Shown: in pieces, positions 4,151 to 58,616 of the stretch
How positions within the stretch are numbered: position 1 is the first letter of the stretch
Layout: the number at the start of each line of letters is the position of its first letter
Origin: Salvelinus alpinus
Lineage: Eukaryota; Chordata; Actinopteri; Salmoniformes; Salmonidae
NCBI RefSeq assembly: GCF_045679555.1
Contig: NC_092120.1
Location: 10,101,305 to 10,165,304 of the forward strand
Reading direction: 5' to 3'
Length of the DNA: 64,000 nucleotides
The notes under the pieces: generated by a model
Databases searched by the model: none
What the model was told of the DNA's origin: nothing
What the model saw: the letters and a program-made list of their open reading frames with translations, nothing else
Made by a program: the position numbers and the translations under genes

Positions 4151-7314
<3,164 letters not shown>

Positions 7315-15640: not shown

Positions 15641-16763
15641 TTCTTGCTGTGAGATGTTACCCTACTCTTCCACCAAGGCACCTGCAAGTTCCCAGACATT
15701 TCTGGGGGGAATGGCCCTAGCCCTCACCCTCCCATCCAACAGGTCCCAGACGTGCTCAATGGGATTGAGATCCGGGCTCTTCGTGGGCCGTGGCAGAACA
15801 CTGACATTCCTGTCTTGCAGGAAATCACACAGAACGAGCAGTATGGCTGGTGGCATTGTCATGCTGGAGGGCCATGTCAGGATGGGCCTGCAGGAAGGGT
15901 ACCACATGAGGAGGATGTCTTCCCTGTAATGCACAGCGTTGAGATTGCTTGCAATGACAACAAGCTCAGTCCGATGATGCTGTGAAACACCGCCCCAGAC
16001 CATGACGGACCCTCTACCTCCAAATCAATCCCGCTCGAGAGTACAGGCCTCGGTGTAACACTCATTCCTTCGGCGATAAACGCGAATCCGACCATGTGTT
16101 TGTGCCCATAGGCGCGGTTGTTGCCGGTGATGTCTGGTGAGGACCTACCTTACAACAGGCCTACAAGCCGTCGGTCCAGCCTCTCTCAGCCTATTGCGGA
16201 CAGTCTGAGCACTGATGGAGGGATTGTGCGTTCCTGTTGTAACTCGGGCAGTTGTTGTTACCATCCTGTACCTGTCCCGCAGGTGTGATGTTCGGATGTA
16301 CCAATCCTGTGCAGGTGTTATTACACGTGGTCTGCCACTGCGAGGACGATCAGCTGTCCGCCCTGTCTCCCTGTAGCGCTGTTTTAGGCATCTCACAGAA
16401 CGGACATTGCAATTTATTGCACTGGCCACATCTGCAGTCCTCATGCCTCTTTGCAGCATGCCTAAGGCACGTTCACGCAGATGAGCAGGGACCCTGGGCA
16501 TCTTTCTTTTGGGGTTTATCAGAGTCAGTAGAAAGGCCTCTTTAGTGTCCTAAGTTTTCATAACTGTGACCTCAATTGCCTACCGTCTGTAAGCTGTTAG
16601 TGTCTTAACGACCGTTCCACAGGTGCATGTTCATTAACTGTTTATGGTTCATTGAACAATCATGGGAAGCCGTGTTTAAACCCTTTACAATGAAGATCTG
16701 TAAAGTTCTTTGGATTTTTACGAATTATCTTTGAAAGACAGGGTCCTGAAAAAGGGACGTTTC
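15641..16763 (-). mobile_element. Degenerate Tc1-like transposon, 3' end truncated
   Basis: On the minus strand, 16145-16501 encodes the N-terminal DNA-binding part (MPRVPAHLRERALGMLQRGM, then RSGRPRVITPAQDWYIRTSH). 15662-16003 encodes the catalytic part (MVWGGVSQHHRTELVV, then SPDLNPIEHVWDLLDGRVR). Frameshifts lie between. Its 5' terminal region with AGGGTCCTGAAAAAGGGACG lies at 16721-16763. The opposite end is lost in the simple repeat. Confidence 0.82.
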
Positions 16764-23635: not shown

Positions 23636-26600
23636 CTGGAGTCAATAACACGTTAACTGTGGGTATAGCTAGATTGAATATTTCCCAGAAGTCAACAGAT
23701 AAAGATGAAAAATAAACCAGTGTAGGTAGAGTACCATGGTAGCGCTGCTGCTCTCAGAATAACTGCTGGTCTCAGAGCTGGAGTCCTCACTCACACCGTT
23801 GTGACCCAGGATGTCCCCCTGGTCACCAGGGGACTTGGCTGCGCTCTCCACCTCCTCGTCCATGTTCCAATTGGTACGTTCCAGGCTGTGGTGAACGCTT
23901 TGTTAGTCAAAATGAAGGGATTGGGTGACAAAAAAAGCCTAAAGTTCATTCAGTTTAAGAATCATACAGTCCTCACTATACAGTCCTCACCATACAGTCC
24001 CCACCATACACCATACAGTCCTCACCATACATTACAGTCCTCACACAGTCCTTACCATATGTATTTAGACAGTAAAACCGTAGCTTCACTTTCCAAATAC
24101 ATATGGTGAGGACTGTACATGGCCCTGAATAGACAGATTGAATAAGAATAGGAGTCAAAATGAAGGGATTTTGACTTCTACGGGCCCTGGTCAAAAGTAT
24201 TGCACTATATAGGGAATAGGGTGCCATTTGAGACACACTTAAATGTTAGGGTGATGTTATGATGAGAGGAGTAGTCCTACCTGCTGACGGGTCCTAGGTC
24301 ACAGATCTCAGCGTTGAGAAGGGGGACGAAGGTGGTTGAGCAGAAGGGACAGCTGGAGTTGAGGTTGGAGTCGTCAGACGTCCACCCGGCCATTATCTCC
24401 TCGTCATAGACCAGGGAGTTACAGCTCCGACACAGGGAGCAGCTCGACATCAACACCTCTAGTCCCGCTCCCTCTTGGTTGGTGTCCCAGGACTTGCGGA
24501 GAGGAAAGGCCAAATTGGTGGTTTCAGGGAGGTCGACGTCACTCCCCACCGACAGAGAACTCTACAGAGGGAAAGGATGGAGGAACATTAAGCACGTTTT
24601 GACAGGTTTGATAACTCTCTCTACATCTGCAAATGCATTTTACCACAAGTTGGCCAATACAGTATAGTAAGACTATAAGCTACAACAACCCACATGTTGT
24701 CCCCTCACCTCAGAGGTAGCACTGTAGAGCCTCTCCTTAGCCTTCAGCAGGCTCTCAGCCACCTGGGCTTTTCGGGACGGCCTCTGTTCCGACACCCTGC
24801 GCACCGGCCCGTTTTCACCCCCCGAGCGCCGTGCGTCTACACTGGCGGCCCGCCGCCCCGAGACTCGATGACGAGTAGGTGTGAGCAGCTGCTGCAGTTT
24901 CCCTGCCAGGCTTCCCCGACTCGGCGGTGACACATTATTGTAGTTCTCGTCAACGGGCTTGCGGCTCACAGTGTCTCTCGGCCCAGGTGGCCTACATTGA
25001 GAACAGAGGAATAGACTCTTATAGTATATCTGAGTGATTTTCAAACTGTACTCCAAAAACATATCAGAACATTTCAGCCTCAGCTTCTCCACCCCCTCAC
25101 CTGCCGTCTCTGTCCCCAGGCTGGCAGCTGCAGTCGGGCTCGGAGACGGCCGTCTCGGCACAGTCTTTGTAGAAGGTGGACAGGCACACCTGGTCGCGGC
25201 GCACCAGGACACCACCAGGGGGAAAGGGAGAAGGGGTGGAGGTGTCTCGTGGCCCCACGGGGGGCTTACGGGAGGCAGGATTGCTGCAGCCATTGGCACC
25301 TGCGTTCCGGAGCACCGCCTTCATTGAGAGCTTAGACTCTGTGGGGTGGAAATTGTTAGGAGGGTGGTTCCCAAACATTAGACACAGTTGTTTGATGAGA
25401 GTGTTATGTTCCATTAAACCTTAAATCAAATCACATTTTATTTCTCACATGCGCCAATAACAACAGGAGTAGACCTTACCGTGAAATGCTTACTCACAAG
25501 CCCTTAACAAACAATGCAGTTAAAGAAATAGAGTTAAGAAAATATCTACTAAATAAAGTGAAAATACTGGGGGTACCGGTACCGAGTCAATGTGCGGAGG
25601 TACAGGTTAGTCAAGGTAATTTGTACATGTAGGTACTGGTAAAGTGACTATGCATTGATAATAAATAGTGAGTAGCAGCAGTGTAAAAATGGAAATAGTC
25701 CGGGTGGCCATTTTATTAATTGTTCAGCAGTCTTATGGCTTGGGGGTAGAAGCTGTTAAGGAGCCTTTTGGACCTAGACCTAGACCACTTGCCGTGTGGT
25801 AGCAGAGAGAACAGTCTATGACTTAGGTTACTGGAGTCTGACCATTTTTTGGGCTTTCCTCTGACACTGCCTAGTAAATAGGTCCTGGATGGCAGAAAGT
25901 CTGGCCCCAGAGATGTACTTGGCCACACGCTCTACCCTCTGTAGTGCCTTCCGGTCGGATTCTGAGCAGTTGCCATACCAGGCGGTGATGCAACCGGTTG
26001 TTGCCTACCTTTACCACCTGGGGGCGGCCCATCAGGAAGTCCAGGAACCAGTTGCAGAGGGAGGTGTTTAGTCCCAGGGTCCTTAGCTTAGTGATGAGCT
26101 TTGTGGGCACTATGATGTTGAACGCTGAGCTGTAGCCAATGAACAGCATTCTCACATAGGTGATCCTTTTGTCCAGATGGGAAAGGGCAGTGTGGAGTGC
26201 AACTGAGATTGCGACGTCTGTGAATCTGTTGGGGCAGTATGCAAAATGGAGTGGGTCTAAGGTTTCCGGGATGATGGTGTTGATGTGAGCCATGACCAGC
26301 CTTTCAAAGTACTTCATGGCTACCGACATGAGTGCTAATGGGCGGTAGTCATTTAGGCAGGTTACCTTCGCTTTCTTGGGCATAGGGACTATGGTGGTCT
26401 GTTTGAAACATGTAGGTATTACAGACTCGGTTAGGGAGAGGTTTAAAATGTAAGCGAAGACACTTGCCAGTTGGTCCGTGCGTGCTCCGAGTACACGTCC
26501 TGATAATCCGTCTGGCCCCAAGGCCTTGTGAATTTTGACCTGTTTAAAGGTCTTGCTCACATCGGCTACGGAGAGCGTGATCACACAGTCGTCCGGAACA

Positions 26601-29600
26601 GTTGGTGTTCTCGTTCATGCTCCTGTGTTGCTTGCCTCGAAGCGAGCATAAAAGGCATTTAGCCCGTCTGGTAGACTTGTGTCACTGGGCAGCTCACGGC
26701 TGGGTTTCCCTTTGTAGTCCGTAACAGTTTGCAAGCCCTGCCACATCCGACGAGCGTCAGAGCTGGTGTAGTAGGATTCAATCTTAGTCCTGTATTAACG
26801 CTTTGCCTGTTTGATGGTTCATCTAAGGGCATAGCGGGATTTCTTATAAGCGTCCGGATGAGTGTCCTGCTCCTTGAAGGCGGCAGCATTTAACTCGGTG
26901 CAGATGTTGCCTGTAATCCATGGCTTCTGGTTGGGATATGTACGTACGGTCACTGTGGGGACGACGTCGTCAATGCACTTATTGATGAAGCCGGTGACTG
27001 AGTTGGTGTACTCCTCAATGCCATTATATAACATTCCAATTACCGTGCTATTTCTATAAAATAGATATCCGTCACTCACTGTCTGTTGAGCCTCTCATGC
27101 TGTTCAGGCTGTTGCTCTTCACCATAGACCCCGTCAGCGATTCGTGGCTGGAGCTTTCACTCAGGCCGCTCCAGCTGGACTGACGAATCAGGTTAGATTG
27201 TGGGCGGGACCGTTGGTTACTGTCCATTGTATCTATTTAAAAAGACAAAACATGTTTCACCGCTATGTTTTAACATATATAATGATTTTAATTCAAACCA
27301 TTAAAAAGGCCACTCTAAAACCAATGACTATTTATTGTTACAAACAATAGTAAGAAACAAATAACATGTAAATATGTCCTGACCTGTCCGCGAGCCTACT
27401 GAACCACTCTTCTGACGTTGTCTGATTGGCTGTCTGAACTGCGCCACGGCCATCAGAACGTTACGCAACTTGGCCCAGCGCAGACGGCCACCCTGATTGG
27501 TGGAGGGCCACTTGCTCTCCAGCACTGCCTGAGGAGAGAGGGCCGAGCCAGAGGTGAGTCAATATGGGGGGAAAAAGACAACACTACAGACGGGATCACA
27601 GACGGGATTGAACTCTATTTTTAATTCAAGTAAATAATGTCTCACCTTGTTGTAGTATGCATAGGTGATGGTGTTGGGTGTGATCCCAGCTTTCTTCATC
27701 TCCAGAAGTACCCTAACAGCGAGCACAGGCTGCCCGTACTGCCCACACAGCTGCATCAGGATCCTGTAACACACCTCATCCGGTAGTACCACCTTCCTAG
27801 TCTCCATGTGCTTGAGCACCTCGTATGCCGTTTGCAAGGCACGCACCTTGGCACTCTCCGCCCGCACAAAGGTGGGCAGGTAGATGAACCACAGCCCATA
27901 GCAGTGGCCAAGCAGGCATTTGGACCACATGTCGGGCACTGCCGAGTATATCTGTGCCCGCTTCTGCGCCAGCTTAATCTCCTAAAGGAGAAACCCGGAT
28001 ACAGGAGTTAGGTAATCCAATCTAGATTCACTAAAGCCGTAATAATGTGGTTCCTATGTGTCCTAGTAGGCCAACTTAACAACCCTGAAGGGTGCTTGGG
28101 GTATTCACCCAAAATACACAGCCGCCAATGTGCTTCCTGCTTTTAAATATTGAATGAAGGATGAAATATGAATGCTCATTAAATTCAAATGGCACAGAAA
28201 AACAGTGAACCATGTTCCCTCTTTAGCTGTGGAAAACTGGGTTATCATAAAGCTAACTGGGGAGTCTTGAACAGATCAAGTTGATTGATGCTATATGATA
28301 AACAGAGAGTAGCAGCAGCGTAAAAGAGGGGTTGGGGGGCGCACACAAATAGTCCTCAAAAGGTTCTACAGCTGCAACATCGAGAGCATCCTGCCTGGTT
28401 GCATCACTACCTAGTACGGCAATTGCTCGGGCCTACGACCGCAAGGCACTACAGGTAGTGCATATGGCCCAGTACATCACTTGTTTTGATTTGCAGGCAG
28501 GGTAATGCCCTTAATAAAATAATAAAGATTGAAATTAAACTGCGTGAGTCAGCCTCTTAATATTATTGTATAGTTGTGTTGGCTTTCAACGGTGTTGCAG
28601 TGTGTTTTAAGGGGCTCTGGCACAGCATGTTGGGGTCTGTACCTGTTTGGTCCGTCGCGGGGCAGGGCTGCTGGGGGCACTCCCCTTGGTAGGGACACGT
28701 AGCTGGTCCTGAGGCCGGTCAAAAAGATCCATGCAGAGCACAGGGAATGTCTCATAGCTGTAAACATACAAACACGCTGTCACTGGTCACAGCATCAGAC
28801 AGTATAAAGTGCTGGGGCCCTTATTTGTGCTCATCTAGAATCAGATCAACCTTCGTATTCTTTATTATTTAAAAGACTAAACTGATCCTAGTCCCAGCCC
28901 TACTTTGAGAAGCTTAGAGAACACGAACCCTGCTATATGTAGAGCCTGTGTTACCTGTAGTGAGTGGGGCACTCTGAACCGTCTGGCTCCTGGGGTTCCT
29001 CTGGGGGCATGATGAAGACCGTGTGCTCCCCACTGTGGGCCTCGTCCAGGTCTATCAGACGCACCTCCTCAGGCTTCTCCACATCCGACTGCTTACACAC
29101 ACCACATATATATATATGTAGATACATGCCACAAACACAGGTCACATACACAGGTATACACAAACATTGACGTAGAGGGCAGGAATGGGATCACACACAT
29201 TTCCATTAGTTGTGCAAATACAAAAAGGCTCATCCGGTTTCAGTATTAGAATCAACACACTAAAAGCTTCCATAAGATATGGTGCGTCACTAAACATCCT
29301 GTAAAACAAGAAGATGTGATTCTGACCTTCTGGACACACTCGTCGAAGAACTCGAGACAGGCATGGCGATCACTGACGAATGAGCACTCCTCGATGAACT
29401 GAGTGAACATCTGGGTCCTGGTCAGCTGGGTGTAGAACTTCTGGTGGGTGCGTTCACGAGACTTCAGGAAGCCTGCAAGAGCCAGGGAGGGGTTAACTTC
29501 AGACACACATTAAAACACTAGCTTCACAGGGATGCTGGTTATCGACACAGTAAGTAGGTGAGGTAAAACCCCCACACACATGTACTCAGCTAGAATGTTA

Positions 29601-32600
29601 TATAATATTTGTGCACATTTTTTGTTTGTTATTTGTCACACACACAGGCAGCCACCCCCTCCCATACTGACCCTGCAGGTTGAAGAGGGAGCTGCAGTCG
29701 GTGGTCCTGTCTGAGGGGGCCTGGGTGATGGGCAGCAGGTAGGCGCGGTAGCCCCTCAGCAGGCAGCTCATGAAGCGCAGGAAGGCCTCCTGGATCTCCA
29801 GCTCCAGCTGCTTCTGACGCCCGTAGATCAGGTCATAGTCCGTCAGCAGGAACTCCAGGGTGGCCTCCTCTTGGCCAGTGGTGTAGACTGATGGAGAAGA
29901 ATGTGGGGAGAGGGGAGAGGAAAAGTGAGGGAAATGGGGGTAGTGGTGGAGAGGCAGAGAGAGAAAATGATGAAGATACAAAGCATTGGCACATAGAATT
30001 ATCAAGAGTCAGATGTATTGCACCAATATGTTTTAGCTTGTACTCATTTTCCAGCATCAGTCCCTAAATGGGCTTCAGAATAAGTAGGCTAGATGATGTA
30101 AAATTATTGACAGAAGGGAGAAGAGAGTGCATGTCATGCATGGTCTCCAGCCATCACTCACTTTTCTCCAGAGTCTTCATCAAGTTGGTGAGGGTATTCA
30201 CCAGCATCTTGCCTTGCTTCCTTGGTAGCGATCGCCATGACAACGGCTTCTTGTCCTCTGCTCTGCAGGAGAAGAGAAAACAAAACTATGGATTTCATCC
30301 TTTCAAACGTGTGTATGTTTGTTTTGTTGCTTCCTCTTCCATCAGTTGCATCCTGGTCCAGGCCCTTCAAGGTCAGTGTACTCACTGAAAGATGGTGTTG
30401 GTGTCCAGGTCAACACACACCACGTCAGTAGGGGGGTCATAGAGGTCAAAGTAGCTGGAGTGGACGCCCACGATGAAGGGCATGGGTGCACACAGTACGT
30501 CTGCCAGCCGCAGCGGGCACAGGGGGATATACGGGCAGTGCCAACGCAGAGGGAACGTCATCTAGAGGGATAGTGCATTATTTTATTTATTTTTTAAATT
30601 AGTACAGTGGGTTAACTGCCTTGTTCAGGGGCAAACGACAGATTTTTACCTTATCAGCTTGGGGATTCGATCTAGCATCATTTCGGTTACTGGCCCAACG
30701 CTCCAATGACTAGGCTACCTGCCGCCCCCTTGGAATGAGTGTGTGTGTACGTATATGTCTTTGTGTGTGTGTATGGCGGTGTGTGTAGGTTTGGCGTGTG
30801 TGTGACTCACAGACACCAGGGCCTCGCTGACGGAGGTGAGGACGTCGGGGCGGAGGGAGTGTAGCAGTAGTTTGTGCTCCGTCAGCACAGCCAGCAGCAG
30901 GACACAGGCGTTCTCAGGGCCCAGGTTCTGCAGCAGCTTCACAAAGCTGGCACCACTACAGACAGAAAAGAACAGCCTCTTTATCAATTCATTATTGTTT
31001 TAATGGATTCACTTCAACATGATAATAGAAATCCCTCAGGGGAAACTAAGTCATGGTTGGAGAGATAGCGCCTAGCGCAGAAGAACGCATTCCACCACAT
31101 AGTTTACTGCGACTCGACCTAATGCAGATTTACTGTACTGACCTGAGCAGTAAGGGGGAGGAGACGGGCTGACAGAGGAGAAGGTTGTCATAGGGGGAGA
31201 GCTGAAATGACACAAACATTTTTCATTAACAAACCAACATGGTGGACAATAATCTACAGGTCTAAGGAAGAACGTTTAGCCATGCTTCAATTTCATAGAC
31301 CACCATTCACCAAATTGATATCTGTTGATTTGAAACAAGCAATTAGGAATCAAGTTTGAAAAGCCCCATGAGACTCGATTTGAGTTTTCTAGAAATCCCC
31401 AAACTACTTAAACAATCGTCTCTACTTTCTAGAGCCGGAAGGATCATTCAGTGATGTTAAATTATTTTAAATCCACAGTAAATTATAGATTGTTTTGATT
31501 GGGTGTTATTTTTACCCTGTCCATCTGCACACACTAACCAGTGAAACCATCAATTCATTCAACGCCCATTTCCTGTGGGGGAGGAAGTCACATCTTTAGT
31601 GAGAAACACCACAATGCTACTGGTGTCAAACTCAAATAGAACTCAAGCTGAGGTTCCGCTTGTAACGCACACACAGAGAAAGCTTTTGTTCTAAACTAGC
31701 ACTAAAACGCCTGATTCAGCTAATAATCACAGTCATGCCTTACTTGAATTAGGTATTTTAATGCTGCCTTCTGTATAGCCCTGAGCTAAATCAATGCTTA
31801 GCTAGGTTTTCCACTCCACCCGTCTGATGCTTTAAAGTGCTTTGATGTGTTAATAAGGAATAAAGATAAGAGAATGTGAATTGAGTTAAAGACAGGTGTC
31901 CCTACCTGCACTAGGATGCGAGGCCGCTGAGGGGAGGGGAAGGGGACGTTGTGCATGAAGCTGGAGATGTGCCTGGAGAGAGCAGAGTTCATGTTAATAA
32001 ATCAACCAAACAACCAACCATAACATGAATCAACAGCCAATAGGCTGAAGGTATGTTAGCCAGTAGATTAGCCAGTTTAGGTTTATAAAGACACATAGCT
32101 GATATTTGCCATGAAGGACCACTGACTTCTCAAGGGGCAGCACGTGGGGTCCGGAGATGGAGTATCGGTAGACGAAGGTGAGGAACTTCTGGAAGACGGT
32201 GAAGAAGGGCCAGTGGGAGAGAACACACACGCTCTTCTTCACTTGCAGGGTGCGGTTGGTGATAGGCCGCCGGTCCACCACGCTCACCAGGCCCAGACGG
32301 ACGCTCTGCCGCTCCGAGAGGCACTCCCGTGGGAACGCCTCGTAGAACTGGATGGCAGCACCGTAAACCTGGGACGGGAAGAGGAGACACGGGAGTGTTA
32401 AAAAGTAAGGATTTAGCTAACGCTAGATGCTTTGAACTGTGTAAACAGTTAGCAAATGCTAGATACTGTGAGAAATAGTGGAGTTACATTTTTTTTATTA
32501 AACTGTGAGCGAGTTCATACTTAAGTCATTTGCATCTCAATGTTGTTGTTTTTATTGCTTTATCGCAGATAAAGTCTATACAGTGGGCCAATTTAAAACT

Positions 32601-35600
32601 TGTAATTGAGGTAGGCAAGCATGATATTGAATAGCTGCATTGGTAAATAACTACACACAAGTCAAGCAACAAATAGTTGGTCTTTATCAACATTAGAACA
32701 TTAGGATTTGTCAATCTTCATACATCACACTTGATATACATTTCTTTGTGAGTGTATATTTCTGAACCTTGTCAGCCACCGTAGGTCATGGCATTTTGTG
32801 GAATTAGAAATATTTCAGCCCATTTGGTTCTAGAATTAGATTTTGTTGTCGCAACCATAGAATTAGCAACATACTCCTTACTGGTGGCCTCACTGGCGTG
32901 TCACTGTGATGTCATCACTCATGATGCTGATTCCCTGATCATAATCAGATGAGTTCTGAGTTACCATAGTGATGATTACTATATCATCAAACAAAATCAA
33001 TGGAACATATTCCAAAATCGTCAGTCTGTGAAAAATCCTTTGAAGAGACAACCTTGCTATTTCTGCAGATTTTTTCAAGCTGATTTCACACATTCATTGG
33101 ACCCTCTGTTCAACAAAGCAATGAATCGACGACTAAGCGTGTCCATGTCTCGAAGAAGTGCAGTTTCTGATGAGAAAATTGTCAGCCGTGGGAGAGGCCG
33201 ATCGAGGGCTAGATGCCACTACCCTACTTCGGTAAACCAGCCAATACATAAGACTGTAATTATTAGTAACACAGATGTTCTGTAATAAACTTTTTGAGTT
33301 CTGTTTCAAATGAATGCAAATTTCAGAGTGGTCTTGGCTGAGAGTTGTTTAATTTTGTCCATACAAAGGAGAGAGAAAGCCCTGACTCTGTGACCCAAAC
33401 AGTGAAACACCCTCAGAAGGCAGAGAAGGATGTAATGAATCGTGGACGGAGTGCGTCTGTCGCTCGAAGAAGGGGAAGATCTGTAAATGTAAAAAATCAT
33501 ATGAAAATGTTGTTTTAATACGGTAGCTAAATCTCAGATTTCTTAATCTGATGCCATATACTAATCATTCTTGATCCATGTCATGTTCATGGTGATAAAA
33601 CATGTTCTATTTTCAGGAGGATGAGAAATCTGTTTGCCGTGAGAGAGGCAGATCCAGGATCAGACGCCACTGCCCAATTTTGGTAAACCAGTCCTTATAT
33701 TCATTGGTTAATACAGTATGGAGGAACACTGACATTTTCTGAAAAGTTAAAAAAAATTGTTTATACCTGTTTCTGCCTCAACTTTCAAAGTAGGCTAACA
33801 GTTATTTCATTGTCTTAAAAGATCCATACAAAGAGAGACAGCACTGACTCTGTGTCCCAAACAGTGGACTACTCTCAGAACGCAGAGAGGGACGTAATGA
33901 CTCACGGATGGAGTGTGTCATCTATCCCTCAAAGAATGGCAATAACTGTGAGTTAAAAAAACATACAAAAAAGCTTTAAAAACATGCTACCCTAATCTCA
34001 AATTCTTAATCTCATGCCATATGCCAATCAATCTTGAACCATGTCATGTTCTTGTCATAATGATAATTGAAACGTTTTCTTTTTCAGGAAGACGAGAAAA
34101 CTGTCTGCCGTGAGAGAGGCAGATCCAGGACCAGACATCACTGCCCAACTTCGGTAAACCAGCCCATATATTCATGTATTAACACTGGCATTTACATCTT
34201 TTCAGATCTGTTTCAAGTGAAGGCAAATGTGAGAGTGGTCTTGGCTAAACTCTCCATATAGGCTAAGTGTTGTTCCATTTGCCCTAACAGATCCGTACAC
34301 AGGAGAGAGACGGCACTGACTCTATGAACCAAACCGTGGAATACCCACAGAAGGCAGAGGGGAATGTAATGAATCGCGGACGCAGTGTGTCTATCCGCCC
34401 AAGAAGGCCAATAACTGTGAGCAAAAAAATAAACTCCGAAATATTGTCAAAACACGGGAGCCTATTGTCAGATTTTCTGATGCCATATGCTAACCATTCT
34501 TGATCAATGTCATGGTCTTGTTTGCATGATTATATGGAAACCTTTTATTTTTTCAGGATGACAGGAAAATTGTCAGCCATCAGAGAGGCCGTTCCAGGAC
34601 CAGACACCACTGCCCAACTTCGGTAAACACTGGCATTTTCTGATTCGCTTTTCTGCTCTGTTTCAAGTGAAGGCAAATGTGAAAGTGGTCTCGGCTAAAT
34701 TTCCATATAGGCTAATAGTCGTTTCATTTTGTCTTAACAGATCCATACAGAGAGAGATGGCACGGACTCCCAAACAGTGGAGCCTGCACTGACTCCCACT
34801 GACTCCCAAACAGTAGAGCACCCTCAGAAAGCAGGGGGAAATCACATGAGGAAAAAACAGGACCTAACCCCTTTTGAACAGAAATGTAACAGAATGTTAA
34901 AGAGCGAGAGGGAGTGGTTGGAGAACAAGAGGAGAGAGATCAGAAAGAGGGAGATCCTATGGAGACAGAGAAAACTGGAAGTCGAGGGAAGATACCGAGC
35001 CAAGATGGAGGGATTGCTAGAGGACATGGCTTGGCAGGTCCAGGCATTGGATTTGTTCACAGAGAAAGATGGAGAAACAAAGAGTGGTCAATCAAAGGTG
35101 AGCTTTAGTGACTATTTCAGCACTATAATGTTGTTTCTACTATCCTTCTGTTGAGTAAACTATCATCTTTTCAACATAGCCATTTTAGAACGAATACAGT
35201 AGAAGCAGTAGTACAACTAAACATGGATCAGTAGGTATACTAGTATTTTGTTATTGCAGTTAAACAATACTTGTCATCTTTCTTAGAAGAATGGCCAGGT
35301 CCCCTTGGTGACAGGACAGCACAAGGCAGGGGATAAGAAAACACGGCTTGAGAACAAGGCTGAGAAGAGCAGAAAAGGAAGGATAGGGAACAGAGAAAGA
35401 AAAAGGGGAGGAGGGTGGTGATGGAGATGATGATGGCGCAGGGAAAGAATAAAGGGGTGGTTTGGCTTGATATAGGTCTGAGGAGGGTCTGGAAACGGTT
35501 GAAGAAAGGGGTCAGGTTCATCCTGGGCACATCCTACTAGGATGATATGATTTACTTTTTGGAATAAACTGAGCTTTTATTAGAAAATGTTTTGCTTGTC

Positions 35601-37364
35601 TGGATTTAATATCATATAGAGAACCTTCCTACACAGCTTAACACATAACCCAATGGACTCAATAGCTTAGCCACTGCGCAGTGTTAGAGTGTTGGAGAGT
35701 GTGTGTGAGAGGGAGGCAGGCAGGTGGACCCACCTTGTCGCCACTGGCACTGGTGAGGACGAAGGTAGAGAAGACAGGGAGCTGGTACTTGGTGTTGAGG
35801 GGCCAGCTCTCCACCGTCACACCCATGGGCAGACAGAACATAGGCACAGACTCTGGCAGGGGGAACGACTCCACGTCTGCTTCCGGATACCGACTGATCA
35901 GACCTGGGAAACACACACACAGAGAGACAGACAGTTAATAATAGTTTGATTAGTGACTACAGAGATACTTTCATTTTTGGTAAATCTTTCTACTTCTAAA
36001 TGTCTTTAATTATGAAAAAGTAGGTCAATATGCCTTCTCTGTTTACAACATCACATATGGCGACGCAGCAGAATGAGTGCTGTGATACCATCAGAATGGA
36101 ACAGTCTACACTCACCTGCTTCATAGACTAGGGCATTGGCTTTGGCTACAGCTCTCTTGTAGCACAGGTATAAGGCTGGACCCCACTGTGGAGCCAAAAC
36201 AACAAAGCGCAGTGAGAGAGAGAGAGGGATGGAGGAAGAGCGAGAGAGATTAAGAATTACATTTAAAAAAATACAGAGTAGAAAAACAGAGCGCTTCAAA
36301 ACGCACTATGCCAGTGTTGAGGTTCTTCTCCACCCGGCAGAAGGTGTGGGGGGCCACCTCCCCCTTGCTGGGCAGCAGGAGGGAGATGTCTGTGACCCCC
36401 AGGGTGTGGAGGGCCTGGGACTCTGGGGCACGGCGGTAGGTCAGGAAGGTGCGGTGGGTGGCAGGCCCCCCGGAGCTCAGGCTGGCTGAGCGGCTATAGG
36501 GGGTGGTCTCGATCACATACCAGCCCTGCTTCACCACCTCTTTGCCCTCGTACAGCACCCTGGGGACCGGGGGAGGGGACAGAGTCAGGACAATCAGTCA
36601 GTCAATGTCAGTAGTTATACAGTTCACAGAAACCAATTTCTATCACTCATTCAAGGAAAGCTTTTCTTTGCATGTTTAGAAGACATCCCACACTTTGTCC
36701 CAAATTAATGTATCATGTGACGTGCATAGCTCTTTCCATTAAAGAATCTATGGGTATGTATACAATTACATTTCGCAGTCATGTATGGCTTGGCCAGACA
36801 TGCTTAATTTAATGATTATGGCAGTTTAGGGCTACGTAGCAATAGCATACAATAAAACCTTTGTGGTCAGATGTACATGGTTACAGCATGCATTATGTCG
36901 ATAATTGCATAATGCAAATTCAAAGCATTGTTATGCATTAGCTACTGTATGTGAACTCCAAGCACCATGCATAGCTTTACATTGATGTTGTGGCTAATGT
37001 CTGTGACTCCAGCACACATTAGAATAGAATGGTCATTTTTTTAAATCACTGCTGGAGTGTCTCACCCGAGGTCGAGGATGGGTGGCTTGTCATGCCCACG
37101 GCGGTAACACAGGTACATGTGGGGGTTGTTGATGAGTCCGGCGCTCAGCTCGGCCGGGTGGCCCCCCTGGGTCTTCTCGATACAGGTGAAGCCCTCGGGC
37201 ACCTCCTCCCCCAAGCCCCGGGCGATCACCGCCAGGTCTGTAACCGGCTCCACCACCCGACACCCTCTCTGCTGGCCCTCTTCGTCCAGTGGGGCCGAGC
37301 CCCCTGGAGCCAGCCCTGCCACCACAAAGTAGTCCACTAGCTGGGGGCATTTCTCCTCCGTCAT
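20209..37364 (-). CDS. dennd4b: DENN domain-containing protein 4B, 26 coding exons
   Basis: DENND4 proteins are guanine-nucleotide exchange factors, reported for Rab10, acting in membrane traffic. Coding exons, high to low coordinate: 37364-37066, 36559-36307, 36185-36116, 35903-35734, 32368-32127, 31972-31906, 31201-31143, 30955-30811, 30561-30386, 30262-30162, 29887-29672, 29472-29327, 29088-28955, 28757-28643, 27981-27646, 27528-27384, 27232-27080, 25338-25101, 24991-24709, 24561-24281, 23885-23735, 23635-23396, 23287-23188, 22984-22819, 20520-20462, 20354-20209. All junctions are GT-AG. Phases close exactly to 4,491 nt, or 1,496 residues. I chose DENND4B over 4A and 4C because the N-terminus (DYFVVAGLA), the [10 protein letters not shown] stretch and the C-terminal AFDKKYK...KAVDCR...EC end match what I remember of DENND4B. 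No stops or frameshifts were seen. It may be one of two salmonid duplicates, which cannot be told from this window. Isoforms are not resolved, and exon 13 could start three bases earlier at 29091. Confidence 0.93.
20577..22753 (-). mobile_element. Decayed Tc1-like transposon in dennd4b intron 24
   Basis: Ends are inverted: CAGTGCCTTGAGAAAGTACA at the left, and CACTTTCTGAAGGCACTATT at the right. Internal remnants include a minus-strand transposase scrap at 20916-21119 ([19 protein letters not shown], then [12 protein letters not shown]), with the usual motifs altered. It is interrupted by another element. Confidence 0.75.
21888..22590. mobile_element. Second Tc1-like element nested in the first
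   Basis: Related inverted ends (ATAAATGCAACATGCAATAA at the left, TTACATGTTGCGTTTATTTT at the right) bound about 700 bp of degenerate sequence that contains short Tc1 scraps but no open transposase frame. Confidence 0.6.
22988..23120. repeat. (TGAG)n and GA-rich tract at a splice acceptor
   Basis: About 12 GAGT units (22988-23036) are followed by a GA/CG-rich purine tract to 23120. On the minus strand this is a (CTCA)n and CT-rich sequence leading straight into the CAG acceptor of dennd4b exon 24. Confidence 0.93.
23735..27232 (-). CDS. dennd4b: dennd4b exons 17-21: low-complexity middle and Cys cluster
   Basis: Residues about 892-1260. It is rich in Ser, Arg and Pro and probably disordered. 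It includes [20 protein letters not shown] in exon 19. Exon 20 carries a cysteine cluster (CSLCRSC near residue 1157, then CPFC near residue 1187) around the conserved [19 protein letters not shown], which looks like a small metal-binding motif. Intron 17 (25339-27079) is mostly a LINE remnant, but exon phases across it match, so no exon seems lost. Confidence 0.9.
23964..24060. repeat. Short tandem CAGTCCTCACCATA repeats in dennd4b intron
   Basis: A 14-19-bp unit with CAGTCCTCACCATA is repeated about six times with length variation. Confidence 0.8.
24048..24116. repeat. Inverted repeat in dennd4b intron 20
   Basis: The left arm CAGTCCTTACCATATGTATTT pairs with AAATACATATGGTGAGGACTG, leaving a loop of about 27 bases. 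The left arm overlaps the tandem CAGTCCTCACCATA array. Confidence 0.8.
25425..27060 (-). mobile_element. L2/Rex-like LINE remnant in dennd4b intron 17
   Basis: The 3' tail is at 25425. 25871-26584 encodes a reverse transcriptase palm fragment ([54 protein letters not shown]). 26819-27060 encodes the upstream part ([20 protein letters not shown]). It is frameshifted and lacks the FADD segment, so it is inactive. Confidence 0.85.
27384..29088 (-). CDS. dennd4b: dennd4b exons 13-16: linker and PPR-like helical region
   Basis: Residues about 649-891. The acidic [18 protein letters not shown] segment is followed by a Ser/Pro linker with basic residues ([10 protein letters not shown]). Exon 15, the largest coding exon at 336 nt, encodes the helical pentatricopeptide-like segment ([73 protein letters not shown]). 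Exon 16 adds [23 protein letters not shown]-like repeats next to DENN are a known feature of DENND4 proteins. Their function here is inferred from the family only. Confidence 0.92.
28288..28495. mobile_element. Two LINE scraps joined in opposite orientation
   Basis: 28288-28356 matches the minus-orientation 3' region of the local LINE family (GATAAACAGAGAGTAGCAGC). 28357-28480 matches the plus-orientation reverse transcriptase end (AAAAGGTTCTACAGCTGCAA, then ATCGAGAGCATCCTG). They meet at a shared TCCT. Confidence 0.65.
29327..32368 (-). CDS. dennd4b: dennd4b exons 5-12: tripartite DENN catalytic region
   Basis: Residues about 265-648. The exons encode the rest of uDENN ([15 protein letters not shown] and [14 protein letters not shown]), the cDENN core ([35 protein letters not shown], then [47 protein letters not shown]) and dDENN ([58 protein letters not shown]). 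This fold is the Rab exchange module. Exon 5 is separated from exon 4 by the 3.4-kb intron that hosts the unrelated plus-strand gene. The intron after exon 8 (30562-30810) carries a SINE. Confidence 0.93.
30575..30727 (-). mobile_element. tRNA-derived SINE in dennd4b intron 8
   Basis: On the minus strand it begins GGGCGGCAGGTAGCCTAGTC, then the B-box-like part (GATCGAATCCCCAAGCTG), then AAAAATCTGTCGTTTGCCC and GGCAGTTAACCCACTGT. It ends before the usual CTAGTTAAATAAA tail. Confidence 0.85.
33121..35421 (+). CDS. Unrecognised multi-exon gene nested in dennd4b intron 4
   Basis: I do not recognise this gene. Exons with GT-AG borders and phase-0 ends: 33121-33231, 33369-33482 (acceptor doubtful), 33617-33682, 33822-33947, 34088-34153, 34291-34416, 34557-34622, 34741-35097, 35287-35421 (TGA). 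The total is 388 residues, or 350 if the second exon is skipped. Two exon types alternate. One has 22 codons, rich in Arg and Ser ([15 protein letters not shown]). The other has 42 codons (RDGTDS...QTVE...QKAE...VMNRGRSVS). The last large exon reads [20 protein letters not shown] and then a Lys/Arg/Glu-rich stretch of about 60 residues that should form a coiled coil. The end is basic. No signal peptide or membrane segment was seen. It runs opposite to dennd4b. The ATG at 33121 (MNRRLSVS) is the first in frame, and an upstream exon is possible because an acceptor-like CAG sits at 33066-33068. It could be a lineage-specific nuclear protein, or a decaying gene. Confidence 0.6.
33165..34740 (+). 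repeat. Tandem array of ~470-bp two-exon genomic blocks
   Basis: The start of the small exon recurs at about 33167, 33617, 34088 and 34557, spacings of about 450, 471 and 469 bp. Similarity extends into introns. For example, GTAAACCAG follows the small exon in three units, and a segment like GAGTGGTCTTGGCTAAA precedes the larger exon in units 1, 3 and 4. Whole exon-intron-exon-intron blocks were therefore duplicated. Confidence 0.8.
35563..35568 (+). promoter_or_regulatory. Polyadenylation signal AATAAA of the nested gene
   Basis: A canonical AATAAA lies about 140 bases after the TGA at 35421, followed by a T-rich stretch with TTTGCTTGTCTGG. This supports transcription ending inside the dennd4b intron. 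Confidence 0.6.
35734..37364 (-). CDS. dennd4b: dennd4b exons 1-4: N-terminus and MABP-like region
   Basis: Residues 1-264. Exon 1 opens with a short Pro/Gln stretch, then [12 protein letters not shown], a charged linker, and the start of the MABP-type beta-prism region ([16 protein letters not shown], then [17 protein letters not shown]). Exon 2 carries YEGKEV, a [10 protein letters not shown] segment and the LTYRRAPES strand. Exon 3 is a small 70-nt exon ([23 protein letters not shown]). Exon 4 begins the upstream DENN region ([15 protein letters not shown]). The start codon at 37362-37364 follows a splice acceptor (CAG at 37384-37386) by only 19 bases, so the 5' UTR must begin in another exon. 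Confidence 0.92.
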
Positions 37365-43449: not shown

Positions 43450-45704
43450 TGCATGGTCCCCTGACCACATCACAACATTGTCCAGGGTGTCTGAATTCAC
43501 CCTGGTAATACCTCAGGGCAAGGAAGACACACCACTCTCAAGACCACAGAAGATTCTAATAACAGTTCTGGTTGGTTCACCCAAAGTCAGAGAGAGCCAA
43601 ACAGATTCCGGGGCCTCGGTGGCCCTAACACCAGGGTTCATGCCACCAGCGTTGTTAATTCCGCTCCAGCAGCGTCCATCGAGGCACGTGGCTGGCACTG
43701 TCTCTGACTGTCAGCACTCCTGAGAGCAACACATCTGCCACGCTGATCCTCAACACTGGAGCTCCCCAGGGGTGCATGCTCAGTCCCCTCCTGTACTCCC
43801 TGTTCACCCACGACTGCATGGCCAGGCATGACTCCAACACCGCGTGCTCAGTCCCCTCCTGTACTCCCTGTTCACCCACGACTGCATGGCCAGGAACGAC
43901 TCCAACACCATCATTAAGTTTGCAGACGACACAAGTGTCACCTGATCACCGACGAGACAGCCTATAGGGAGGAGGTCAAAGACCTGGCCGGGTGGTGCCA
44001 GAATAACAACCTATCCCTCAACGTAACCAAGACTAAGGAGATGATTGTGGACTACAGGAAAAGGAGCACCGAGCACTCCCCCATTCTCATCGACGGGGCT
44101 GTAGTGGAGCAGGTTGAGAGCTTCAAGGTCCTTGGTGTCCACATCAACAACAAACTAGAATGGTCCAAACACACCAAGACAGTCGTGAAGAGGGCACGAC
44201 AAAGCCTATTCCCCCTCAGGAAACTAAAAAGATTTGGCATGGGTCCTGAGATCCTCAAAAGGTTCTACAGCTGCAACATCGAGAGCATCCTGACCGGTTG
44301 CATCACTGCCTGGTACGGCAATTGCTCGGCCCCCGACCCCAAGGCACTTCAGAGGGTAGTGCGTACGGCCCAGTACATCACTGGGGCAAAGCTGCCTGCC
44401 ATCCAGGACCTCTACACCAGGTGATGCCAGAGGAAGGCCCTAAAAATTGTCAAAGACCCCAGCCATAGACTGTTCTCTCTAAATCAAATCAAATCAAATT
44501 TTATTAGTCACATACACATGGTTAGCAGATGTTAATGCGAGTGTAGCGAAATGCTTGTGCTTCTAGTTCCGACAATGCAGTAATAACAACAAGTAATCTA
44601 ACCTAACAATTCCACAACTACTACCTTATACACACAAGTGTAAAGGGATAAAGAATATGTACATAAAGATATATGAATGAGTGATGGTACAGAACGGCAT
44701 AGGCAAGATGCAGTAGATGGTATAGAGTACGGTATATACATATGAGATGAGTACTGTAGGGTATGTAAACATAAAGTGGCATAGTTTAAAGTGGCTAGTG
44801 GTACATGTATTACATAAAGATGGCAAGATGCAGTAGATGATATAGAGTACAGTATATACATATACATATGAGATGGGTAATGTAGGGTATGTAAACATTA
44901 TATTAAGTGGCATTGTTTAAAGTGGCTAGTGGTACATTTTTACATAATTTCCATCAATTCCCATTTTTAAAGTGGCTGGAGTTGAGTCAGTATGTTGGCA
45001 GCGGCCGCTAAATGTTAGTGGTGGCTGTTTAACAGTCTGATGGCCTTGAGATAGAAGCTGTTCTTCAGTCTCTCGGTCCCTGCTTTGATGCACCTGTACT
45101 GACCTCGCCTTCTATTACCGCATGGCAAGCGGTACCGGAGAGCCAAGTCTAGGACAAAAAGGCTTCTCAACAGTTTTTACCCCCAAGCCATAAGACTCCT
45201 GAACAGGTAACCAAATGGTTACCCGGACTATTTGCATTGGGTGCCCCACCCCCAAACCCTCTTTTACGCTGCTGTTACTCTCTGTTTATCTTATATACAT
45301 GGTGACTTTAACTATACGTTCATGTACATACTAGCTCAATTGGCCTGACCAACCAGTGCTCCCGCACATTGGCTAACCGGGCTATCTGCATTAGGTCCCA
45401 CCACCTGCCAACCTCTCTCTTTACGCTACTTCTACTCTCTGTTCATCATATATGCATAGTCACTATAACCATACCTACATGTACATACTACCTCAGTAAG
45501 CCTGACTAACCGGTGTCTGTATAAAGCCTTGCTACTCTTATTTTCAAATGTCTTTTTACTGGTGTTTTATTTCTTTACTTACCTACACACACACACACCT
45601 TTTTTTTCTTCGCACTATTGGTTAGAGCCTGTAAGTAAGCATTTCACTGTAAGGTCTACACCTGTTGTATTCGGCGCACGTGACAAATAAACTTTGATTT
45701 GATT
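43450..45704 (+). mobile_element. L2/Rex-like LINE, interrupted by a second LINE tail
   Basis: The reverse transcriptase palm is seen around 43760-43930 (GAPQGCMLSPLLYSLFTHDC, then KFADDTS). The downstream part at 44041-44424 reads [35 protein letters not shown]. The 3' end with ACAAATAAACTTTGATTTG is at about 45704. A block of about 70 bp in the palm is duplicated, and another element is inserted at 44480-45110. It is inactive. Confidence 0.87.
44480..45110 (-). mobile_element. 3' end of a second LINE, inserted in the first
   Basis: The minus-oriented 3' tail (AATCAAATCAAATCAAATTT) is followed by the non-coding 3' region. The host LINE resumes at TCTATTACCGCATGGCAAGC. Inside, a unit of about 120 bp (GGCAAGATGCAGTAGATGRT...GGCTAGTGGTACAT) occurs twice, at about 44701 and 44822. 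Confidence 0.8.
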
Positions 45705-48037: not shown

Positions 48038-49231
48038 AATCAAAGTAACAAGAAATGTACATAACAATAACGAGGCTATATACAGGGGGTACCGGGTCAA
48101 TGTGTGGGGGCACAGGTTAGTCCAGGTAATTTGTAAAGTGACTATGCATAGATAATAAACAGCGAGTAGCAGCAGCATAAAAACAAAGTGTAGACAGTCT
48201 AATTAATTGTTCTGCAGTCTTATGGCTTGGGGATAGAAGCTGTTAAGGAGCCTTTTGGTTCTAGACTTGGTGCTCCGGTACCGCTTGCCATGCGGTAGCA
48301 GAGAGAACAGTCTATGACTTGGCTGACTGGAGTCTGACAATTTGTTGGTCCTTCCTCTGACACCGCCTAGTATATAGGTCCTGGATGTACTGAGCCGTAC
48401 GCAATACCCTCTATAGTGCCTTACGGTCAGATGCTGAGCAGTTGCCATACTAGGCAGTGATGCAAACGGTCAGGATGCTCTCGATGGTGCAGCAGTAAAA
48501 CTTTGAGGATCTGAGGACCCATGCCAAATCTTTTCAGTCTTCTTTACAACTGTCTTGGTGTGTTTGTACCATGATAGTTTGTTGGTGATGTGGATACTAA
48601 AGGAACCTGAAGCTCTCAACCCGCTCCACTTCAGTCCCGTCGATGTGAATGGGGGCCTGTTCGGCCCTCCTATTCCTATAGTCCAGGAGCTCCTTTATCT
48701 TGCTCACATTGAGAGAGAGGTTGTTGACATGGCACCACACTGCCAGGTTTCTGATCTCCTCCCAATAGGCTGTCTCATCGTTGTCATTGATCAGGCCTAC
48801 CACTGTTGTGTCGTCAGCAAACTTGATGATGGTGTTGGAGTCATGTTTGGCCACGCAGTTGTGGGTGAACAGGGAGTACAGGAAGGGACTAAGCACGCAC
48901 CCCTGAGGGGCCCCAGTGTTGAATCAGCGTGGCAGATGTGTTGTTGCCTACCCTTACCACCTGGGGGCAGCCCGTCAGGAAGTCCAGGATCCAGAGGGAG
49001 GTGTTAAATCCCAGGGTCCTTAGCTTAGTGATGACATTTGTGGGAACTATGGTGTTGAACGCTGAGCTGTAGTCAATGAACAGCATTCTCACATAGGTGT
49101 TCCTTTTGTCCAGGAGGGAAAGGGCAGTGTAGAGTGCAATTGATATTGCGTCATCTGTGGATCTGTTGGGGCAGTATGCGATTAGGAGTGGGTCTAGGGT
49201 TTCTGGCATGATTGTGTTGATATGAGCCATG

Positions 49232-50684
49232 AGACTGGCTTCCTGGTAAGGCAAGGGCTGATTTCAAGGTTTTACTGCTAACCTACAAAGCATTACATGG
49301 GCTTGCTCCTACCTATCTTTCTGATTTGGTCCTGCCGTACATACCTACACGTACGCTACGGTCACAAGACGCAGGCCTCCTAATTGTCCCTAGAATTTCT
49401 AAGCAAACAGCTGGAGGCAGGGCTTTCTCCTATAGAGCTCCATTTTTATAGAATGGTCTGCCTACCCATGTGAGAGACGCAGACTCGGTCTCAACCTTTA
49501 AGTCTTTATTGAAGACTCATCTCTTCAGTAGGTCCTATGATTGAGTGTAGTCTGGCCCAGGAGTGTGAAGGTGAACGGAAAGGCTCTGGAGCAACGAACC
49601 GCCCTTGCTGTCTCTGCCTGGCCGGTTCCCCTCTCTCCACTGGGATTCTCTGCCTCTAACCCTATTACAGGGGCTGAGTCACTGGCTTACTGGTGCTCTT
49701 TCATGCCGTCCCTAGGAGGGGTGCGTCACTTGAGTGGGTTGAGTCACTGACGTGATCTTCCTGTCTGGGTTGGCGCCCCCCCTTGGGTTGTGCCGTGGCG
49801 AAGATCTTGTTGTCTCAGGATGGTAAGTTGGTGGATGGTAAGGATGGTAAGTTGGTGAAGATATCCCTCTAGTGGTGTGGGGGCTGTGCTTTGGCAAAGT
49901 GGGTGGGGTTATATTCTTCCTGTTTGGCCCTGTCCGGGGGTATCATCGGACGGGGCCACAGTGTCTCCTGACCCCTCCTGTCTCAGCCTCCAGTATTTAT
50001 GCTGCAGTAGTTTATGTGTCGGGGGGGCTAGGGTCAGTTTGATATATCTGAAGTACTTCTCCTGTCTTATCCGGTGTCCTGTGTGAATTTAAGTATGCTC
50101 TCTCTAAAATTCTCTCTCGGAGGACCTGAGCCCTAGGACCATGCCTCAGGACTACCTGGCATGATGACTCCTTGCTGACCCCAGTCCACCTGGCCGTGCT
50201 GCTGCTCCAGTTTCAACTGTTCTGCCTGCGGCTATGGAACCCTGACCTGTTCACCGGACGTGCTACCTGTCCCAGACCTGCTGTTTTCAACTCTCTAGAG
50301 ACAGCAGGAGCGGTAGAGATACTCTTAATGATCGGCTATGAAAAGCCAACTGACATTTACTCCTGAGGTGCTGACTTGCTGCACCCTCGACAACTACTGT
50401 GATTATTATTATTTGACCATGCTGGTAATTTATGAACATCTTGGCCATGTTCTGTTATAATCTCCACCCGGCACAGCCAGAAGAGGACTGGCCACCCCTC
50501 ATAGCCTGGTTCCTCTCTAGGTTTCTTCCTAGGTTTTGGCCTTTCTAGGGAGTTTTTCCTAACCACCGTGCTTCTACACCTGCATTGCTTGCTGTTCGGG
50601 GTTTTAGGCTGGGTTTCTGTACAGCACTTTGAAATATCAGCTGATGTAAGAAGGGCTATATAAATAAATTTGACTTGATTTGAT
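49232..50684 (+). mobile_element. LINE 3' portion inserted in the minus-strand LINE
   Basis: The segment interrupts the host LINE between GATATGAGCCATGA and CCAGTCTTTCAAAGCAT. It ends in GCTATATAAATAAATTTGAC and TTGATTTGAT, a LINE-type tail. It contains the familiar stretch TTGAAGACTCATCTCTTCAG. There is no intact reverse transcriptase. Confidence 0.8.
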
Positions 50685-51612
50685 GACCAGTCTTTCAAAG
50701 CATTTCATGGCTACTGATGTGAGTGCTACGGGGCAGCAATAATTTAGGCAGGTTACCTTTGCTTTCTTGGGTACAGGGACTATGGTGGTCTGTTTGAAAC
50801 ATGTAGGTATTACAGACTCGGTCAGGGAGAGGTTGAAAATGTCAGTGAAGACACTTGGTAGTTGGACCGTGCATACTTTGAGTACACGTCCTGGTAATCC
50901 GTCTGGCCCCGCGGCTTTGTGAATGTTGACCTGTATAAAGGACTTGCTCACATCAGCTACGGAGAGTGTGATCATACAGTCGTCTGAAACAGCTAGTGCC
51001 CTCATGCATGCTTCAGTGTTGCTTGCCTCGAAGCGAGCATAAAAGGCATTTAGCTCATCTGGTAGGCTCTCGTCACTGGGCAGCTCATGGCTGGGTTTCC
51101 ATTTGTAATCCATAATAGTTTTCAAGACCTGCCACTTCCAACCAGCGTCAGAGCCGGTGTAGTAGAATTACATTTTAGTCCCGTATTGACGCTTTGCCTG
51201 TTTGATGGTTCGTCTGAGGGCATAGCGGGATTAGCGTCCGGATTAGTGTCCTGCTCATTGATAGCAGCAGCTCTAGCCTTTAGCTCGGTGTGGCTGTTGC
51301 CTGTAATCTATGGCTTCTGGTTTGGAAATGTACGTACTGTCACTGCTGGGACGACGTCGTCGATGCACTTATTGATGAAGCCGGTGACTGAGGTGGTATA
51401 CTTCTCAATGCTATTGGATGAATCATGGAACATATTCCAGTCTGTGCTAGCAAAACAGTCCTGTAGCGTAGCATCCGCGTTATCTGACCACTTCCGTATT
51501 GAGCGAGTCACTGGTACTTCCTGCTTTAGTTTTTGCTTGTAAGCAGGAATCAGGAGGATATAATTATGGTCAGATTTTCCAAATGGAGGGCGAGGGAGAA
51601 TCTGTGTGACAC

Positions 51613-57326: not shown

Positions 57327-58616
57327 CTAACTAAAATAATTCAACACATATTGGTCCCTCAGCAGCCGACCACTGTCGTCATCAGGGAAGATTGCCGGAT
57401 TGTCCCAGTCCATGGCTGGTGGCACTCTGGGGGCCCTCTCCTTCCTCAGGCAGGCCACATTGTGGAGGACAGCACAAGCCACAGTAATATCACATGCCCT
57501 AACAGGGCTGACCCTTAATTTGTGAAGGCAGTGAAAGCGTGCCTTCAGGAGGCCAAAGGTCATTTCAACTCTGGCCCTGGTCCTGGCATGGGCATGGTTG
57601 TAGGCCTGCTGTGCTTCCTGGGGGTCTGTGAAAGGTGTCAGGAGAAAAGGCTGGCAGCCATACCCCCTGTCTCCCAGCAACACACCAGAGAATTCACCTG
57701 TCAACACAAAATCTCATCATTACTACCTCATAAACACAGTGATATTCTTGACACAGCCATGATGGTTATAAATAGGGGTTGTGTGGCTTACCTTGTGATA
57801 GGCACTGATAGATTTCAGAGGCCCGAAAGATTCTGGAGTCATGACTGAGCCAGGCCATTTTGCCACAACATTGCTGATCACACAGTCAACATTGCAGACC
57901 ATCTGAAATCATAAGATGAGGAATATTACACCAATCAATGCACATCACTGGCAATGCAGAGTGTTCGTCAATGGACAATATCAAAAAGTTATGTTCACCT
58001 GAACATTAATGCTGTGAAAGGATTTCCTATTCACAAAATCGGCCTCATGGGCACCTGAGGGGGCTTTTATCCTTATGTGTGTGCAGTCCACTGCACCAAT
58101 GACATTGGGGAAACCTGTCACACAAAGTAATGAGTATCCTACTATGTGTTAACAGTTGTCCTGTAATTTGTAGATCCTCTTACCTGCAATCCTATAGAAC
58201 TCCTCTTTGATGTCACAGAGTCTTCTGTGGCCAGGGAAGGAGATGAAGACATCTGCTAATGCTTTGATAGCCAGACACACACTCCTTATTGTGCGGCAAA
58301 TTGTGGCCTTGTTCAGCTGTTCTGCATCCCCCACTGAGTACAGGAAGGCTCCACTAGCAAAAAAGCGCAAGGCCACACAAACCATTTGCTCCACACTCAG
58401 TGCATGGCTCCGTGCAGTGCGGTGCTTAATCCTGGGACCCAGTAGTCTGCATAGATACCTGATGCCATCTGCAGAAAACCTGTATCTTTCATATAGATGG
58501 TCATCAGGGAAGGCCAGTGGGTCCAACCGGTCCCTGAAGACCCTTTCTCGCCTGAAGGCTCTCCTCAGCACAAGTGCTTCTTCATCCACCACATCTCGCA
58601 CGAATGGGCATGCCAT
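57327..58616 (-). pseudogene. HARBI1-like Harbinger transposase with a one-base lesion
   Basis: DDE nuclease that would cut and rejoin the transposon. Exons: 58616-58184, 58114-57999, 57902-57792, 57697-57327. Exon 1 has YRFSADGIRYLCRLLGPRI, an N-terminal DNA-binding region. Exon 2 has [17 protein letters not shown] with the first catalytic Asp. Exon 3 begins NVDCVISNVVAKWPGSV. Exon 4 has LLGDRGYGCQPFL with the third catalytic Asp, then ARVEMTFGLLKARF and the C-terminus DQYVLNYFS. Exon 3 is 111 bases, but the flanking phases need 112. The frame slips just after GSV, at about 57840, where the HDS motif with the second catalytic Asp would be, and a stop soon follows in exon 4. It would be about 343 residues if whole, near HARBI1 size. 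A sequencing error is possible. Confidence 0.85.

Follow-up and report, generated by a model that had tools for sequence, protein, structure and literature searches.

A probable module-built protein-coding gene nested antisense within dennd4b in a salmonid-like fish

In the 64,000-nt stretch of DNA analysed here (the window), an intron of a DENND4-type gene contains, on the opposite strand, a nine-exon structure that the sequence comparisons strongly support as a real protein-coding gene. The initial annotation had already argued for a real gene at this position, and that view is greatly strengthened by the contrast between the intact window copy and a decayed copy elsewhere in the genome (C4), and by an intron-less junction within exon 1. 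The best explanation, which we consider probable, is a single-copy protein-coding gene lying on the opposite strand of a dennd4b intron in a salmonid-like fish. The sequences show that a two-exon module was amplified before the locus was duplicated and that the window copy survived and the homeologous copy decayed, with host exons 4 and 5 intact at both loci. The transcript would be spliced as modelled and translated, and selection would have kept its frame and splice sites.

The model extends over 33121-35421 on the plus strand, and each of its exons has GT donor and AG acceptor borders and a length divisible by three. Exon 1 (33121-33231, 111 nt) provides the start codon and consists of the tail of one module, B, fused to another module, A, without an intron. 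Exon 2 (33369-33482, 114 nt) is module B1, which has lost the acceptor of its sister B copies by deletion; a weak in-frame AG further downstream was assumed. Modules A2, B2, A3, B3, and A4 follow as exon 3 (33617-33682, 66 nt), exon 4 (33822-33947, 126 nt), exon 5 (34088-34153, 66 nt), exon 6 (34291-34416, 126 nt), and exon 7 (34557-34622, 66 nt). Exon 8 (34741-35097, 357 nt) starts as module B4 and continues into a long helix, and exon 9 (35287-35421, 135 nt) encodes a basic tail with a 16-residue bipartite-NLS-like stretch at residue 361 of the product. Once joined, the exons yield 388 codons followed by a TGA stop at 35419-35421. A candidate poly(A) signal, AATAAA, is located at 35563-35568 on the plus strand and is retained at C4; a second one at 35448 on the same strand is altered in the C4 copy. 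The GC content is 50% for the nine exons combined and 28-39% for the eight introns. The eight or nine phase-0 GT-AG exons described earlier, closing on a stop codon and followed by AATAAA, thus correspond to nine exons, 388 residues, a TGA, and two AATAAA motifs.

All modelled exons, and the statement covers these exons only, lie inside one host intron, on the opposite strand, between protein-coding exons of the host. These flanking minus-strand exons, whose borders were read by eye, are coding exon 4 (35734-35903) and coding exon 5 (32127-32368), leaving a 3.4-kb intron at 32369-35733 (32371-35734 in the scripts); it is intron 4 when coding exons are counted by eye from the MTEEK start. Joined, host exons 4 and 5 match the Pfam models of uDENN (1.8e-18) and the start of DENN (3.2e-5), so that the antisense position in dennd4b intron 4 given by the initial annotation is borne out. 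In addition, the two N-terminal host coding exons, taken together, hit an MVB12-type model (6.5e-6), and a PPR match (1.5e-13) lies near 27.6-28.0 kb. We take this combination of uDENN/DENN, MVB12-type, and PPR matches to fit a DENND4 protein; the label DENND4B is our presumption, for a DENND4-type gene not separated from DENND4A or DENND4C.

Most of the nested gene is an array with the unit A (66 nt), intron, B (about 126 nt), intron, in which there are four copies of A (about 22 codons) and four of B (about 42 codons); the fourth B contains a 30-nt insert and continues into the unique C-terminal part. Within aligned blocks, no gaps separate the A exons of the window units and gaps of 3 and 3 nt occur among B1-B3, whereas 25 of the 35 gaps in pairwise intron comparisons have lengths not divisible by three (the pairs are not independent). 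The frame conserved over many small exons had been put forward as an argument for the gene; all exons are indeed in phase 0, but this observation weighs less than it seems, since copying of one two-exon module produced exons 1-7 and the start of exon 8.

The beginning of exon 1 is more telling. It opens with a B tail joined straight to A, its first 48 nt agreeing with the B1 tail at 33/48 positions and with the B3 tail at 32/48, and on either strand of the window no other ungapped match reaches 28/48, apart from the segment itself. The B/A intron is absent there and is present, at the predicted splice sites, in the three other junctions. The predicted borders thereby gain support that does not depend on consensus scores, and the comparison of exon 1 with the other units would represent a precise intron gain or loss within one gene, in either direction. 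It is a small and clear example of such a change inside a single gene.

The splice sites were also scored, with rough hand-written matrices that served in the chain tests as well. With these matrices, the donor of exon 8 ranks first among the 189 GTs of the host intron, and of its 277 AGs the acceptor of exon 7 comes first and that of exon 5 second; some sites are weak, notably in exon 2, whose donor ranks 50th and acceptor 29th, and at the acceptor of exon 4 (32nd). The longest in-frame GT-AG chain on the plus strand of the host intron measures 1359 nt in any phase and 1329 nt in phase 0, overrunning the borders of the model by several exons because the search maximises length. In both tests, chains of 1167 nt or more were absent from all 500 dinucleotide shuffles, whose maxima were 768 nt (any phase) and 639 nt (phase 0). 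Among 70 other window stretches of equal length, five reached 1167 nt in any phase and one in phase 0, the latter being a Tc1-type transposase region; since such stretches exist, chain length alone does not prove a gene.

A search of the genome (2.37 Gb, 928 contigs) revealed a second dennd4b locus with the same array, on C4 near 43.37 Mb. All 8 DNA matches and all 17 protein matches (E up to 1; the counts are lower bounds) fell in the window and C4 loci. We examined 9.5 kb of C4, where the host intron and exon 5 are 88.7% identical to the window over the longest aligned piece. The host translations agree at 81 of 81 residues in exon 5 and at 48 of 49 in the part of exon 4 that falls within this stretch. 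The nested copy, in contrast, carries 14 exon indels, 11 of which are not multiples of three; one of these frame-breaking indels, a 32-nt deletion, removes the acceptor of exon 6. There are three in-frame stops (a TAA brought in by an insertion in exon 1, and TGA and TAG codons in exons 6 and 8, respectively), and the donors after exons 3 and 6 are lost. Three codons were counted as changed to a stop by a single base; only those in exons 6 and 8 are true stops, the third codon being doubly changed, and the inserted TAA completes the three stops given here. In total, C4 has 16 disabling lesions (11 indels, 3 stops, and 2 donors) and the window copy has 0, a split with a one-sided probability of about 1.5e-5 if lesions hit both copies equally. 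With the other repeat units as outgroup, inspection by eye suggests that C4 carries the derived states in exons 1-7 (exons 8 and 9 have no such outgroup), less clearly so for the first exon-4 indel, where the window copy is itself 3 nt shorter. The longest exon chain in the 5' piece of C4 is 516 nt, versus 963 nt in the matching window piece; for the whole intron it is 729 nt, starting within an insert, versus 1359 nt. Since host exons 4 and 5 are intact at both loci, it is the nested gene, not the host, that was lost from one of them. The insert, 1,451 nt long with inverted ends (ACTCAGCAAAA...TTTTGCTGAGT), is located in C4 intron 8 (L004 7111-8561) and is probably a DNA transposon.

The two loci also allow the array to be placed in time. 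When the repeat units are placed in a tree, every window unit groups with its same-numbered C4 counterpart, with a support of 1.0 for units 1, 2, and 4 and of 0.94 for unit 3. Jukes-Cantor (JC) distances range from 0.06 to 0.10 for homeologous pairs and from 0.21 to 0.45 for different units, so the internal repeats have diverged about 2 to 8 times as much as the homeologs. This pairing means that the module expansion is older than the locus duplication and that the gene is not recent, contrary to the alternative of a recent gene raised in the initial annotation. The locus duplication would be the salmonid duplication (Ss4R), which both the 2.37-Gb genome and the divergence fit; Lien et al. 2016 (PMC8127823) date this event to 80 million years. 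We conclude that the window gene is very probably real and fairly old.

Selection on the residues themselves was assessed by several counts. Between the window and C4 copies (364 codons used, 24 masked), dN is 0.065 and dS 0.130, a ratio of 0.50, and intron divergence is 0.097; this is the pattern expected if one lineage drifts neutrally and the other is constrained. As many synonymous changes arose in 597 of 20,000 neutral simulations. Split by part, dN/dS is 0.52 across exons 1-7 and 0.39 in exon 8; in exon 9 it reaches 2.5, dN (0.049) exceeding dS (0.019) with just 5 changes. A hand codon alignment polarised by the other units assigns 13 changes to the window lineage (5 synonymous and 8 nonsynonymous) and 28 to the C4 lineage (9 and 19, respectively), with 9 left unresolved overall. 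A column-wise relative-rate count gives window:C4 ratios of 16:24 in exons and 26:37 in introns (8 and 21 unresolved, respectively); neither ratio is significant, and the window lineage shows no stronger slowdown in exons than in introns. Among the repeat units, dN/dS lies around 1 (0.30 to 3.4, small samples), which indicates that constraint at the residue level is weak. Frame and splicing look protected, as far as these alignments tell, and the residues appear to evolve fast. Over 33121-35418, differences between the two copies are mostly transitions in exons (55:30) and mostly transversions in introns (39:59).

Four other explanations were weighed against a protein-coding gene. A chance exon chain or an artefact of the gene model appears highly improbable: any-phase chains of at least 1167 nt do occur in 5 of 70 other window stretches, but they occur in 0 of 500 shuffles in each test, and chance accounts neither for the intron-less repeat junction of exon 1 nor for the fact that the decay at C4 falls inside modelled exons and splice sites. 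That a transposable element or another repeat mimics the gene structure, as the internal repeats and the TE-rich window might suggest, is next to inconceivable; it is contradicted by the finding of only two loci in the whole genome (from lower-bound counts), and no Pfam family scores above the cut-off.

The two remaining explanations accept a gene and differ on what it does. It could be a real gene acting mainly through RNA, with antisense transcription over the uDENN-coding intron tuning dennd4b and the frame being secondary. Its location on the opposite strand within a host intron, the weak residue-level constraint, the distal poly(A) signal retained in both homeologs, and an upstream stretch conserved in both, including the one with a dead frame, all agree with such a role. 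We nevertheless regard it as improbable: it leaves unexplained why there are 0 frame or stop lesions here versus 14, plus 2 lost donors, at C4, and no Rfam family reaches its gathering score in the host intron. Alternatively, the gene could be recently dead or dying, intact by luck and with no function today. The similar window:C4 substitution ratios in exons and introns and the weak acceptor of exon 2 are compatible with this, and function may have been lost very recently in the window lineage; in view of the 16 disabling differences at C4 against 0 in the window copy, a dead or dying gene seems quite improbable. The functional protein-coding gene is therefore the explanation we retain.

The conserved upstream stretch, at 32851-33030 ahead of exon 1, shows 4 mismatches in 180 positions between homeologs versus 98 in 1081 for the nested introns, and this conservation holds although the C4 gene is dead. 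It is a candidate promoter or intronic dennd4b element, the conservation at the dead copy fitting both equally. It includes TGATGTCATCA, which we take to resemble a CRE. Comparison of the stretch preceding exon 1 with the upstream portion of module B hinted at homology for B1 only (2 of 300 shuffles; 33, 159, and 81 of 300 for B2, B3, and B4, respectively), and homology is not claimed.

Several mobile-element remnants lie elsewhere in the window, for which the names Tc1 and Harbinger are our presumptive labels, with Pfam supporting a Tc3-type transposase helix-turn-helix and DDE_Tnp_4. Two Tc1-type transposase regions lie in opposite orientation at 14211-15309 (+), which matches HTH_Tnp_Tc3_2, and 15665-16549 (-), judged from its ORFs alone. 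A Harbinger-like locus (57330-58709 and 60271-60435) carries on its minus strand a DDE_Tnp_4 endonuclease piece at 57330-57713 (3.2e-16) with a Myb/SANT-like DNA-binding piece upstream of it (5.3e-11); Pfam returned no match for the intervening ORF (58152-58709). Near this transposase, a weak tblastn match to the exon 8 region at 58919-59173 on the minus strand (E 0.002 and 3e-4), obtained with a charged helix as query and no composition correction, was set aside as compositional. Reverse-transcriptase-like LINE fragments were found at 25874-26614 (-), matching RVT_1, and, judged by eye from ORFs, at 43918-44421 (+), 48892-49263 (-), and 50640-51167 (-). A long CA/TG dinucleotide repeat at 5000-5359 reads as a His-Thr run.

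The 388-residue product contains 60 Arg, 36 Ser, and 14 His and has a computed pI of 10.6, so that its description as Arg/Ser/His-rich repeats was accurate. RxxS/T motifs number 16 in residues 1-250 against a shuffle mean of 9.3 (13 of 2000 shuffles have as many), and RGRS occurs 7 times against a mean of 0.04; both motifs are copies of one module and hence not independent. RS/SR dipeptides are not enriched in residues 1-250 (15 versus a shuffle mean of 13.2; 664 of 2000 shuffles have as many). For exon 8, AlphaFold2 run on the single sequence predicts one 70-residue helix (exon residues 44-113), with pLDDT values of 93-99 by block over residues 41-100. Of the charged C-terminal coiled coil proposed earlier, the long charged helix is thus predicted, but the heptad (3.5-residue) hydrophobic periodicity is absent over 64 residues of it (1657 of 2000 shuffles are equally or more periodic), which makes a single charged helix as likely as a coiled coil.

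No family could be assigned to this protein, in agreement with the initial annotation, by searches of Pfam, NCBIfam, the PDB, and this genome. With E up to 10, Pfam returned no family for the C-terminal part of the product and no RRM domain; for the repeat part, four families appeared, all short of the cut-off (best E 0.14). The NCBIfam and PDB-by-sequence searches of the product found no relative, nor did a Foldseek comparison of the exon 8 model with the PDB. Scans with exon 8 gave 3 pattern matches in viral contigs and 48 in genome contigs, none of which was confirmed; in such prokaryote and virus collections a relative was not expected. Titles and abstract openings listed from the open-access literature on dennd4b, nested genes, duplicated exons, salmonid orphans, and fast-evolving coiled-coil orphans make no mention of such a nested gene, for which a RefSeq or Ensembl locus number is possible.

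What the protein might do can be sketched tentatively. It is a possible, although doubtful, reading that the product is a mostly disordered basic nuclear protein (the disorder of the repeats being deduced from composition), whose repeated modules bind acidic partners under the control of phosphorylation. In such a protein, the RGRS-type modules would bind RNA, DNA, or chromatin, phosphorylation of the RxxS/T sites by basophilic kinases would switch them, and a long charged helix and then a basic tail would follow the modules. A role in the germline, which fast evolution would suit, seems rather unlikely. A broader proposal, speculative yet worth keeping in mind, is that the gene is one of an undescribed and rapidly evolving family of Arg-rich repeat proteins that extends among teleosts far outside the salmonids, long resident in the dennd4b intron, nuclear, and perhaps active in germ cells; the strong divergence of the internal repeats relative to the homeologs points this way. 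If this family exists, salmonids would provide a natural experiment, with a live and a dead nested gene at the two dennd4b homeologs.

With this gene, a fish genome gains an orphan protein that is probably functional. The two dennd4b loci also provide a clean comparison within one genome, the nested gene being live at one and dead at the other, which makes it possible to test the effect of nested antisense transcription on a host and what a basic protein built from modules does.

Among known systems, SR/RS-domain nuclear proteins and other Arg-rich disordered proteins share Arg-rich, Ser-containing basophilic repeats with the window product; it differs from them in lacking RS/SR enrichment, an RRM, or any Pfam domain above the cut-off. 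The fate of the locus resembles that of Ss4R singletons described by Lien et al. 2016 (PMC8127823): a pseudogenised homeologue fragment was found for 56% of 9,162 singletons, so decay of one copy is an ordinary fate for a salmonid gene. As in those cases, one homeolog is intact and the other is a pseudogene at the expected place, here within the same host; unlike in them, host exons 4 and 5 are intact at both loci. The 88.7% identity of the longest window/C4 stretch fits the classes given in the same paper (about 87%, 90-95%, and over 95%; PMC8127823). As for the nested arrangement, a close parallel is provided by the opposite-strand nested protein-coding genes of vertebrates, such as lrrtm1-3 in introns of alpha-catenin genes (PMC3933685). 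There too, a whole protein-coding gene occupies the opposite strand of an intron between host coding exons, and the nested partner can disappear while the host persists; the window gene differs in having nine exons, mostly an amplified module, and in encoding an orphan basic protein instead of an LRR receptor. The arrangement of the gene is of a known kind, and its product is a new orphan protein.
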